NCBI GenBank assembly: GCA_018402735.1
Contig: JAGYIF010000001.1
Span: 62,001 to 126,000 of the forward strand
Reading direction: 5' to 3'
DNA from: Pelagibacteraceae bacterium
GTDB lineage: Bacteria > Pseudomonadota > Alphaproteobacteria > Pelagibacterales > Pelagibacteraceae
DNA: 64,000 bases
Every line of letters begins with the position of its first letter. Position 1 is the first letter of the stretch. A program made the position numbers and the translations under genes. Below the pieces are notes generated by a model, which ran no database searches, was not told where the DNA came from, and worked only from the letters and a program-made list of their open reading frames with translations. This document shows positions 50,445-54,939 of the stretch, piece after piece.

Positions 50445-50813
50445 ATGAGTCAAAAATACAACGTGGATGATATTTTAAAAGCAGTTGATAGTATAAATCC
50501 TAAAAGACTTAGTGAAAAAAAATTTGCGAAAGAAGAAATTTTAGATGCAGTAAATCAAATAAATACTCAAAATAATGAAGCGAAAATAATAAAAACAGAT
50601 TTTAATAAAACTTCTAACGGCATTACTATTAACGAAGTAAAACCAAAAGATGCTTTAAAAAATAAAAAACCAACTCAATATTTTACAAAACCTCTTTTAC
50701 TTACAAATATTATCAAATACGAATCTACTAACACTAAAGTTTTATTTTTAAAAAAATTATACAATTCAAATTTAAAAATTATCACAATGAAAGCACCTAT
50801 GGTTAATAAATGA
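50445..50813 (+). CDS. Uncharacterised 122-residue protein with a duplicated N-terminal helix motif
   Basis: I do not recognise this protein. Two similar segments, YNVDDILKAVDSIN (residues 5-18) and FAKEEILDAVNQIN (27-40), share the pattern aromatic-x-x-acidic-acidic-I-L-x-A-V-x-x-I-N and look like paired amphipathic helices. The remainder is Lys/Asn/Thr-rich without membrane segments or Cys. It is followed by a zinc-ribbon membrane protein whose ATG overlaps its stop (ATGA), so the two are translationally coupled. Codon and base use match the neighbours. It reads as a real gene because of coupling, the repeat and a 122-codon frame in plausible context. A short N-terminal acidic-I-L helix recalls the partner-binding helix of PopZ-like proteins, but that is a weak resemblance. 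Confidence 0.65.
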   Translation: MSQKYNVDDILKAVDSINPKRLSEKKFAKEEILDAVNQINTQNNEAKIIKTDFNKTSNGITINEVKPKDALKNKKPTQYFTKPLLLTNIIKYESTNTKVLFLKKLYNSNLKIITMKAPMVNK

Positions 50814-51148
50814 TAATAAATTGTAGATGTGGTAAGTATCAATTCGATGTAAAAAAATCTGATATTGGAACTTCTGGTAGAGAAGTGCAATGTGGAATTT
50901 GTAATGAAAAATGGGTTCATGGTGGTTCTGTTTCAAGCTCAAATGTAAAAAAAATAACCAACTTAACTCAAAAATACAGGACACCATTAACTCACAAAAT
51001 AATAATTTTTTTTATTTACGTTACTGCCATAATTGGTTTTTTAGATCTAATTAAATACAAACTAATAACTGCTGCTCCGATATTTCAAGATTACTACATA
51101 GCGAAAGAAAAAATTATCTTGGAAATTATAGCCATCCTACAACAATAA
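50810..51148 (+). CDS. MJ0042-type zinc-ribbon protein with one membrane segment
   Basis: The N-terminus (MIINCRCGKYQFDV, then GREVQCGICNEKWVH) has Cys5, Cys7, Cys28 and Cys31 in the MJ0042/zinc_ribbon_5 arrangement, except that the first knuckle is CxC rather than CxxC. A basic linker leads to one hydrophobic helix at about residues 63-81, and a short C-terminal region follows. Such proteins in alphaproteobacteria are cytoplasmic zinc knuckles tethered to the inner membrane, often next to ftsE/ftsX; function is unknown. It overlaps the preceding unknown gene by 4 nt and precedes an Fe-S scaffold gene by 6 nt. Confidence 0.8.
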   Translation: MIINCRCGKYQFDVKKSDIGTSGREVQCGICNEKWVHGGSVSSSNVKKITNLTQKYRTPLTHKIIIFFIYVTAIIGFLDLIKYKLITAAPIFQDYYIAKEKIILEIIAILQQ

Positions 51149-51154
51149 TCCTTT

Positions 51155-51559
51155 ATGGAACAAATTATTAAAATTGCTGCTCAAAATAATTTTTATGGCC
51201 TCAAAGGTAGATCGAAATTTAAGAATGTTTTAAAAAATAAAAACTGTGGTGATGAAATTAAAATTGAATTTGACCTAGAAAAAAAAAAGATTATTAATTT
51301 TAGATACGAAGGTGAGGCTTGCATTTATTGTCTTGCCTCGGCATCTTTACTTTCAAAAAATTTAAACAAACTTAATTTAGAAAATTTACACAAATTGCAA
51401 AAACAAATTTATGATTTTTTTAGTAATAATAAAAGAAATCAAACATTAGCTATTTTTGATTTCAAACAATTATTAAAAAAAGAAAATGTTTCAAGAAAAG
51501 ACTGTATAGGATTGCCAATAAATGCTATTCTAAATACGGAAGGTATAGATGATTGTTGA
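51155..51559 (+). CDS. NifU/IscU-type iron-sulfur cluster scaffold-like protein
   Basis: This 134-residue protein keeps the three-Cys geometry of U-type scaffolds: Cys31 in NCGDEIKIEF, Cys56 in EGEACIYCLASASLL, and Cys117 in RKDCIGLPI; Cys59 is an extra CxxC partner. The N-terminal LYKSIILDH-type helix of true SufU is replaced by an unrelated segment, so it is a divergent paralogue of SufU at 54472. It overlaps sufE by 11 nt, so the two are likely made together and SufE may deliver sulfur to it or to SufBCD. Confidence 0.75.
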   Translation: MEQIIKIAAQNNFYGLKGRSKFKNVLKNKNCGDEIKIEFDLEKKKIINFRYEGEACIYCLASASLLSKNLNKLNLENLHKLQKQIYDFFSNNKRNQTLAIFDFKQLLKKENVSRKDCIGLPINAILNTEGIDDC

Positions 51560-51965
51560 TAAAATTATAAATAAGGGAAAAGAAATTTCTATACTAGAAG
51601 GAACAGATCGTTTGCAGTACTTAATAGATCTAGCTTCTAACATTAACTCACTCGAACAAAAATATAAAATTGAAGAAAATAAAATTATAGGGTGTGCTTC
51701 TAATTTGTGGGTTATTGGAAATAAACAAAACGATAATAGCATGGTTTATCATTTCGATGCGGATTCCTTTATTACAAAAGGTACTGCAAAACTTGTCGTA
51801 GATCTTTTAAATAATGAACAGGCTGAAGAAATATCTAAACTATCAAGAAATGATTTTAAGGGCCTTGGTATTTTGGAACTACTTACCGCTCAGAGGCAAA
51901 GTGGTCTTTCCAACTTAATTGACACTCTAGTCGCTATTGCAAAAAAAAGCATTAGACAATCTTAA
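51549..51965 (+). CDS. sufE: Cysteine desulfuration protein SufE
   Basis: This 138-residue protein accepts persulfide sulfur from SufS and passes it to the SufB scaffold. The acceptor Cys is Cys49 in NKIIGCASNLWVIGN, and the family blocks GTDRLQYLIDLAS, FDADSFITKGTAKLVVDLLN and GLGILELLTAQRQSGLSNL are clear. It lies about 3 kb from the suf operon, on the other strand, in an operon with a second U-type scaffold. Its 3' end overlaps zapE convergently by 14 nt. Confidence 0.93.
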   Translation: MIVDKIINKGKEISILEGTDRLQYLIDLASNINSLEQKYKIEENKIIGCASNLWVIGNKQNDNSMVYHFDADSFITKGTAKLVVDLLNNEQAEEISKLSRNDFKGLGILELLTAQRQSGLSNLIDTLVAIAKKSIRQS

Positions 51966-54160: not shown

Positions 54161-54472
54161 CTATAAATTTAACTGTAGCTTTGCAGCCTCGGACATTTTC
54201 GTCTTATCCCAGGTTGGCTCCCAAACAACCTTTACCTCGACCTCTTCTATTTCTGGAATCGATTCAACAGATCTTCTTACTTCCATGGGTAGAGATTCTG
54301 CCACTGGGCAATGCGGACTAGTCAAAGTCATGTCCATTGAAACTTTTTTTCCCTCTATACGAACATCATAAATTAAGCCTAACTCATAAATATCAACAGG
54401 AATTTCTGGATCATAAACAGACTTAAGCTTCTCTATAATTTTATCCATTAATTCAGAATGATTAGGGTTCAT
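54161..54472 (-). CDS. sufT: SufT/MIP18-family Fe-S assembly protein (DUF59)
   Basis: This 103-residue protein has the DUF59 fold signatures VYDPEIPVDIYELGLIYDV and DMTLTSPHCPVAESLPMEVRR, with the conserved Cys in SPHCP. SufT proteins help mature Fe-S enzymes under high demand; in many operons they follow sufS/sufU, as here. Its start shares one base with the sufU stop. Confidence 0.92.
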   Translation of the reverse strand: MNPNHSELMDKIIEKLKSVYDPEIPVDIYELGLIYDVRIEGKKVSMDMTLTSPHCPVAESLPMEVRRSVESIPEIEEVEVKVVWEPTWDKTKMSEAAKLQLNL

Positions 54473-54939
54473 TAGTTTAATTTATCTATAATAATTTTTT
54501 TATTTTTATTTTCTAATTCAGACTCTATAGCAATCCATGGTAATGTAGCACATTTTATGCGCATAGGAAATTCCCCTATTGACGTAAACGAATTTAATTT
54601 AGTTTTATTATCTTGATTTAAAATGATCGGAAAAGCTTCGTTTTTATTAATTATAACATTGATAAAATATTTACTTATAGCAATGACTTCCTTTTTAGAT
54701 TTATTTTTTAAGACTTCTGTCATTATGGAACTTGAAGCAATACAAATAGCACAACCTTCTCCTTCAAAACTAATCTGATCTATTAAATTATCAATTAGAT
54801 TAAAAAAAATATGAACTTTGTCGCCGCATAATGGATTGAAGCCTGCTGTTTCATGATTAAAAGTTTGCAAACGAGACCTATTTCTTGGGCTAGTTCCATG
54901 ATCAAGAATTATGCTCTTGTACAATTCACTTATATTCAT
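54472..54939 (-). CDS. sufU: SufU-type scaffold / sulfurtransferase
   Basis: This 155-residue U-type protein has the N-terminal LYKSIILDHGTSPRNRS, then Cys38 in NPLCGDKVHIFF, Cys63 (and Cys66) in EGEGCAICIASSSIMTE and Cys130 in RIKCATLPW. That set matches the family; SufU is either a zinc-dependent sulfurtransferase partner of SufS or a scaffold. The organism also carries SufE (51549), so two SufS partners coexist. It is directly downstream of sufS (gap 0). Confidence 0.93.
   Translation of the reverse strand: MNISELYKSIILDHGTSPRNRSRLQTFNHETAGFNPLCGDKVHIFFNLIDNLIDQISFEGEGCAICIASSSIMTEVLKNKSKKEVIAISKYFINVIINKNEAFPIILNQDNKTKLNSFTSIGEFPMRIKCATLPWIAIESELENKNKKIIIDKLN

Follow-up and report, generated by a model that had tools for sequence, protein, structure and literature searches.

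The gene pair and its surroundings

At the locus considered here, two small genes overlap on the forward strand of the window, by which is meant the whole 64,000-nucleotide stretch of Pelagibacteraceae (SAR11) DNA that was analysed. The upstream gene, orf122 (50445-50813, +), was recognised from its open reading frame, its orthologues and its profile matches; it encodes a 122-aa protein with twin helices and PopZ-like motifs and without an oligomerisation domain. The downstream gene (50810-51148, +) begins inside it, at an ATGA stop/start overlap read from the sequence (50810-50813, +), and encodes a 112-aa protein with one transmembrane (TM) segment and an MJ0042 zinc ribbon, here termed ZitP-like on the strength of TIGR02098 and of an alignment with ZitP. 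An earlier note on this DNA had described two ILxAVxxIN helices in the first protein, ATGA coupling of the two genes, and an MJ0042 zinc ribbon with a CxC first knuckle. All three stand: the ribbon scores 26.7 bits against TIGR02098 (cut-off 20.9), with its cysteines arranged as C5-R-C7 and C28-x-x-C31.

Helix copy 1 of orf122, NVDDILKAVDSINP, occupies residues 6-19 (50460-50501, +) and copy 2, AKEEILDAVNQINT, residues 28-41 (50526-50567, +); the repeated segments themselves are ILKAVDSIN (residues 10-18) and ILDAVNQIN (residues 32-40). Both copies are assigned from repetition in the alignment, from AlphaFold2 and from the motif model described below, under which copy 1 is PopZ helix-1-like. 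AlphaFold2 places helices at residues 7-17, 29-45 and 98-106, in a chain that is mostly of low confidence (mean pLDDT 56.5, pTM 0.19). In the single orf122 sequence the repetition is marginal, its score being reached by 59 of 1000 shuffles over 14 columns and by 115 of 1000 over nine; across six aligned congeneric sequences chance does not account for it, none of 2000 column permutations reaching its score at 9, 12 or 14 columns.

Further along the chain lies an LxL motif, KPLLLTNII (residues 82-90; 50688-50714, +), the counterpart of DVLELTxxV in PopZ and a predicted docking site for the zinc ribbon. Residues L84, L85, L86, I89 and I90 are invariant in the six congeneric sequences, and the positions of L84 and L86 are invariant across 11 partner proteins. 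A possible second copy, KVLFLKKLY (residues 98-106; 50736-50762, +), is conserved in congeners and is weak as a repeat of the first (score 0.3, nine columns tested). The protein as a whole is lysine-rich, with a net charge of +11 and 5 prolines.

In the zinc-ribbon protein, the alignment assigns the ribbon to residues 1-38 (50810-50923, +), with C5, C7, R24, Q27, C28, C31 and W35. A single TM segment is predicted at residues 63-82 (50996-51055, +), where the Kyte-Doolittle mean over 19 residues is 2.3 (best non-overlapping window, 0.91).

Orf122 has no match over cut-off in Pfam or NCBIfam, all its matches falling far below, and the same holds for ten of its relatives; the sub-threshold matches, among them DUF3310 and ZoocinA_TRD, include ones that look like chance. 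A further run of family models gave only two results over cut-off: a lipoyl domain fused to one relative (L200, see below) and the IscU-like protein of the window. The earlier note had reckoned with two outcomes that did not occur, a clear match to a known family and an absence of orthologues: no family model recognises the small protein, and orthologues are present both in congeners and in other genomes of the family.

On the 5' side of orf122, on the opposite strand, are a tRNA-Thr gene and a gpsA-like gene. On its 3' side the same run continues into genes for an IscU/SufU-like scaffold (51155-51559, +; NifU_N 30.6 bits, cut-off 22, and TIGR01994 44 bits, under its cut-off of 92.5) and for SufE (51549-51965, +; PF02657 91 bits). 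Both were correctly placed downstream by the earlier note, which treated them as one run with the pair. The association is an unstable one, however: of the loci inspected, only those of genera g1 and g10 have IscU-like and SufE genes after the pair, those of g10 with an opposite-strand small zinc-ribbon ORF in between. Because they trail the pair in these two genera only, they are taken as neighbours, outside the module. Besides the divergent U-type Fe-S scaffold gene that comes after the zinc ribbon, a second one, identified by eye, occurs in the window at 54472-54939 (-), within a suf run.

Distribution and coupling in SAR11

Orthologues of orf122 are found in all five congeners searched, and matches in at least four loci of the GTDB contig collection, where the nearest named relatives among the matches listed are the Pelagibacteraceae MAGs CP.31, CP.55, CP.15 and CP.1. 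The orthologue overlaps the zinc-ribbon gene by four bases in four of the five congeners. In the single-contig congener G005 (L118, 2806-3160, -) the zinc-ribbon frame is broken shortly past the first knuckle while the orf122 gene upstream is intact; the break may be a sequencing error.

For wider searches, a profile (A2) was built from an alignment of 11 small proteins adjoining zinc-ribbon genes in genera g1, g3, g6, g8 and g11. Of the 197 Pelagibacteraceae genomes, 102 have a match at E ≤ 1, with 10 of 14 genera represented, and 88 at E ≤ 1e-3 (counted from the printed table); 11 of the 197 supplied the rows of the profile, and sequences were read for part of the remainder. Outside the family there was no match at E ≤ 1e-3 in 140 class genomes. 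At E ≤ 0.1, a set of 142 class genomes gave the window's own genome and one weak match (0.0056, within a 670-aa frame), and 2 of 24 genomes of the sister family matched at E ≤ 1, both near 0.05.

The relatives that were read measure 53-155 aa, except for one fused form, and consist of a helix, a variable linker and at least one C-terminal LxL-type motif (EILVLDQMI, DILILNRII, DVLILNRLV and KPLLLTNII among them). Two helix copies occur in g1, and again in partners from g6 (L065, L203); more than one LxL-type motif is present in g6, g8 and g10. The fused form (L200, 3642-4202, +; genome G032, genus g7) carries a helix and two LxL motifs following a lipoyl/biotinyl domain (PF00364, 53.7 bits), whose lipoyl-lysine position, judged by eye against the usual motif, appears changed.

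The gene for the helix protein adjoins a zinc-ribbon gene in loci of six genera. In the 17 pairs measured (g1, g3, g6, g8, g10 and g11) the small gene lies directly upstream, with a four-base overlap in 11 (ATGA in 10, GTGA in one) and a gap of 26-30 bp in six. The small gene is about 2 kb from the zinc-ribbon gene, on the same strand, in three g2 loci. Coupling is not universal: the g5 stretches that were read hold the small gene, flanked by genes taken for pyruvate kinase and gap, but no zinc-ribbon gene. Conversely, zinc-ribbon genes are found without a small neighbour, in the stretch read, in g4, g7, the sister family and some g8 loci, as is the second zinc-ribbon gene of the window's own genome.

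Two further features of these loci may be recorded. The g5 helix proteins (L193, L194, L195, L196, L197 and L206) are only 53-57 aa long and end in an IPxNTLKLIEQAEK-type tail, which is partly common to g2 partners and the g7 fusion protein. In g8 and g10 there is a second, tiny zinc-ribbon protein of 69-76 aa (L110, 1648-1857, +; L201, 3667-3891, +; L202, 3339-3569, +), whose gene lies tail to tail with the partner-coupled zinc-ribbon gene and overlaps it, and in which no TM segment was seen by eye.

The zinc-ribbon protein compared with ZitP

Among known proteins, the ZitP proteins of Caulobacter (CC_2215) and Rickettsia offer the closest parallel considered here: an N-terminal MJ0042-type ribbon with C5, C28, C31, R24 and W35, followed by one TM segment. 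In an alignment of 15 rows, 13 of them hand-chosen SAR11 proteins (the frame-broken G005 gene being excluded) and two the Caulobacter and Rickettsia ZitP, residues M1, C5, R24, V26, C28, C31 and W35 are invariant in all 15. These positions have a functional history in Caulobacter, where, according to PMC5182065, PopZ binding depends on the cysteines, on W35 and on the R24/R27 pair, residues 1-43 are enough for polar localisation, and pilus biogenesis is said to require ZitP; an affinity of 700 nM in vitro is also reported there.

The differences are equally definite. The first knuckle is CxC in the SAR11 protein and CxxC in ZitP. The window protein has Q27 where Caulobacter ZitP has R27, a residue of the basic patch; PMC5182065 describes Q27 as natural in the Rhodobacter sphaeroides orthologue and as weakening polar localisation with Caulobacter PopZ. 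After the TM segment the SAR11 protein has some 30 residues in place of DUF3426: searches for that domain found none, Pfam matches up to E 10 being confined to the ribbon. The domain is, on the account in the same paper (PMC5182065), dispensable for polar localisation in Caulobacter. The SAR11 gene also differs in overlapping its partner gene. MJ0042-type matches over cut-off occur outside Alphaproteobacteria as well, as in a Methanocaldococcus control. By most determinants, compared at the level of sequence, the zinc-ribbon protein is ZitP-like.

The small partner compared with PopZ

Caulobacter PopZ has TMEEILASIRRIIS near its N-terminus and EVLELTDPI at residues 52-60. The small SAR11 proteins carry two short elements in the same order, a segment that resembles the client-binding helix (EEILASIRRI) and then a motif of DVLELTxxV type (a definition made here and not a published criterion), which in SAR11 takes forms such as KPLLLTNII and DILILNRII. 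To put a number on this likeness, motif matrices were made from SAR11 partners only (21 helix segments and 19 LxL segments, the windows being picked by eye with PopZ in mind) and scored on 375 ORFs from 50 alphaproteobacterial loci, of which 42 ORFs are PopZ by PF10691. Ranks 1-19 were all PopZ; 33 of the 42 fell within the top 42, and the AUC was 0.962 for the summed score, 0.937 for the helix alone and 0.887 for the LxL motif alone. Against 300 permuted controls (150 free and 150 hydrophobicity-preserving column permutations) the summed AUC was reached by none, the best control placing 29 of 42; the helix-alone AUC was reached by five and the motif-alone AUC by one.

The reverse test is moderate, a PopZ-derived matrix ranking orf122 fourth among 118 ORFs of the window by summed score, with an unrelated ORF first. 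Nor is PopZ picked up by the full-length partner profile among 142 class genomes at E ≤ 0.1. Given that profile result, the matrix rank and the choice of windows by eye, what is claimed is therefore a likeness of motifs and of their order, not proven descent. The PopZ of genome G149, itself below the Pfam cut-off, carries EVFILNRMIKKDG and is, by its sequence, an intermediate between PopZ and the SAR11 partners.

In detail, the position of E12 is acidic in 18 of the 21 SAR11 helix segments and the hydrophobic I/L/V positions are kept, whereas the equivalent of R19 is basic in only one of the 21. Caulobacter PopZ has an acidic, proline-rich linker (net charge -20, 23 prolines) to which orf122 has no counterpart. 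The SAR11 partner has its helix doubled and its LxL motif sometimes repeated, and it lacks the C-terminal DUF2497 oligomerisation domain. Finally, orf122 adjoins a zinc-ribbon gene and not valS, the neighbour in the popZ-valS synteny described in PMC6414705.

PF10691 (DUF2497) exceeds its cut-off in 113 of 142 genomes of the class but in none of the order's 61, and does not match orf122. A composite profile of the PopZ C-terminus gave a best value of 0.134 in the window's own genome, and below E 0.01 among 61 relatives it found three long proteins of g10 and g4 (themselves in the profile) and one protein of G015. The G015 match (1.3e-4) was rejected as a PopZ C-terminus, since it lies within a 684-aa gyrase-B-like frame and is a chance hit; with profiles this short, E-values near 1e-4 can therefore arise by chance.

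The long proteins deserve separate mention. They are coiled-coil proteins of 480-547 aa with LxL repeats and a PopZ-like C-terminus, found in g10 (two genomes) and g4 (one genome) (L108, 754-2241, -; L109, 847-2289, -; L116, 2715-4358, -). Like orf122 they adjoin a zinc-ribbon gene, and those of g10 have a SIKEILKEAKEKL helix; the LxL repeats are of LLLNxEV type in g10 and of IINLTEEV type in g4. Unlike orf122 they end in a (D/N)W(I/L)xxNxxxI(D/E)EI-type segment that aligns with the end of PopZ. Named by reading the sequences, their neighbours are another zinc-ribbon gene and genes for a STAS protein, for a prepilin or prepilin peptidase and for a TPR protein; together these look like a type IV pilus cluster.

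Orf122 is PopZ-like in short motifs and their order, may be so in function, and is outside PopZ as that family is defined. One could suppose that the pair is a lineage-specific membrane couple with some other job (zinc or Fe-S homeostasis, for example, together with the IscU-like protein and SufE), its resemblance to PopZ being a convergence of short amphipathic motifs. The Fe-S neighbours in g1 and g10, the want of any HMM-level link to PopZ and the occurrence of MJ0042-type matches beyond Alphaproteobacteria all speak for this. It has to accommodate, however, the adjacency of partner and zinc ribbon in g3, g6, g8 and g11 at inspected loci free of IscU-like and SufE neighbours, as well as the coincidence of two motifs in PopZ order with the binding residues of ZitP; we consider it unlikely.

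Linker motif and ZitP-like genes

If the LxL motif is what the zinc ribbon recognises, then PopZ itself should keep such a motif where a ZitP-like gene exists. The PopZ linker is described in PMC9512792 as having little sequence conservation; we observe that PopZ linkers often carry a conserved motif of DVLELTxxV type, and that its presence tracks ZitP-like genes. The 116 genomes in which PF10691 matched at E ≤ 0.001 were all included (PopZ loci L078-L107, L136-L147, L208-L222 and L224-L282), a zinc-ribbon gene being counted where TIGR02098 matched at E ≤ 0.001. The motif is present in 69 of 94 genomes with a zinc-ribbon gene versus 7 of 22 without (Fisher p=4e-4); for a completeness of 90% or more the figures are 63 of 86 versus 2 of 14 (p=4.2e-5), and five of the seven exceptions, with motif and without zinc-ribbon gene, are less than 85% complete.

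Several qualifications belong with these numbers. One confounder is that PopZ proteins from genomes lacking a zinc-ribbon gene show greater overall divergence (median 49 versus 82 bits in near-complete genomes); in the range of 40-80 bits, among genomes at least 90% complete, the motif is found in 21 of 29 versus 1 of 9 (p=0.0018). The statistics ignore phylogeny, in test genomes that span nearly 140 families. When nearest neighbours were paired, five of eight pairs were discordant in the expected direction and none against it (p=0.031), a check covering eight of the 14 zinc-ribbon-negative near-complete genomes in which the C-terminal region was recovered (96 of 116 overall). With the SAR11-derived matrix the trend is the same but weaker (AUC 0.71; p=0.0009 for all genomes, 0.006 for near-complete ones). 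Earlier runs on 61 loci, biased to high-scoring PopZ, gave 29 of 39 versus 7 of 22 and 30 of 39 versus 6 of 22; the motif expression differed between versions, the first residue being freed and M permitted at the second place, and several rows counted as lacking the motif hold near variants such as DELELTELV. The score of helix 1 has no significant association with the presence of a zinc-ribbon gene (AUC 0.49 and 0.62).

Since the linker motif tracks ZitP-like genes, it is predicted to be the docking site of the zinc ribbon. The site on PopZ that ZitP occupies is disputed between two papers. One reports that ZitP still binds PopZ from which residues 1-26 have been removed, and puts the site at residues flanking DUF2497, which need not mean 52-60 (PMC5182065); the other states that binding requires helix 1 only (PMC10127582). 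Our co-occurrence result agrees with the former finding and conflicts with the latter statement.

In a different arrangement of the SAR11 pair, the zinc ribbon would be bound through the twin helices and not through LxL, two helices docking two ribbons and so dimerising or clustering the membrane protein, with LxL serving some other role. The helix-1-only statement favours this arrangement, as do the constancy of the helix, which exceeds that of any other part of the partners, and its retention in the g5 proteins, where the C-terminal motif is divergent. It is hard to square with binding in the absence of residues 1-26, or with zinc-ribbon genes that track the linker motif and not helix 1; there is perhaps a small chance that it is correct.

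A probable reduced ZitP/PopZ-type module

The reading that we prefer, and think on balance probable, is that the pair represents a reduced cell-pole or polarity module of ZitP/PopZ type. The zinc-ribbon protein, with its TM segment, would be the anchor in the inner membrane, and its ribbon would bind the LxL motif of the small protein through W35 and R24. The twin PopZ-helix-1-like helices would then face the cytoplasm and recruit clients, for example the ParAB segregation machinery, at what would be a polar site; a ParB gene is present in the window's own genome. Where PopZ multiplies its helices by self-assembly through its C-terminal domain, the SAR11 partner would put two of them on one chain. 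Clustering in SAR11 would rely on the membrane-anchored zinc-ribbon protein, with several LxL motifs sometimes on one chain. We read the doubling of the helix and the repetition of LxL as valency gained without a self-assembly domain, a compensation that we infer for the pair along with binding and localisation.

The earlier note had come part of the way, in proposing that the twin helix docks a partner and that the zinc ribbon holds it at the membrane. That proposal is a good fit to the resemblance of the helices to the client-binding helix 1 of PopZ, and to the retention in the ribbon of two of the residues with which ZitP binds PopZ; it missed the C-terminal LxL motif and the link to PopZ and ZitP. 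That the small orf122 protein does no more than regulate or chaperone the zinc-ribbon protein, as a stoichiometric subunit made by coupled translation and without a role in polarity, would suit the four-base overlap in 11 of 17 pairs, but is very improbable given g5 homologues whose stretches, as far as read, contain no zinc-ribbon gene.

In the 15 class genomes whose popZ and zitP were seen, by eye, to share a contig, the nearest distance between the two is about 92 kb; the adjacency in SAR11 therefore looks unusual. A broader proposal, which we offer tentatively and would not call probable, joins two statements: that PopZ across Alphaproteobacteria may have, in a linker regarded as little conserved, a second recognition element (DVLELTxxV; residues 52-60 in Caulobacter) that docks the zinc ribbon of ZitP, and that SAR11 may have lost the assembly domain and kept helix 1 and the docking motif in proteins of 53-155 residues, often encoded together with the zinc ribbon, as a polar hub that would cluster through its membrane partner and its doubled motifs and not by self-assembly.

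Implications

In the ocean, few cells are more abundant than SAR11 bacteria. Among papers found on PopZ and Pelagibacter, PopZ and SAR11, and SAR11 and cell polarity, titles and the openings of abstracts describe no polarity system for them, nor is the PopZ linker motif apparent as a docking site in the corresponding portions of work on the motif letters or on linear motifs of PopZ. The predicted docking motif offers work on Caulobacter a nine-residue target for the disputed question of where ZitP binds PopZ. As for the organisms themselves, on the evidence of the gene pair these streamlined cells may have retained a pared-down form of a known cell-polarity system; such a minimal hub, if that is what it is, would show which part of the PopZ/ZitP system is indispensable.
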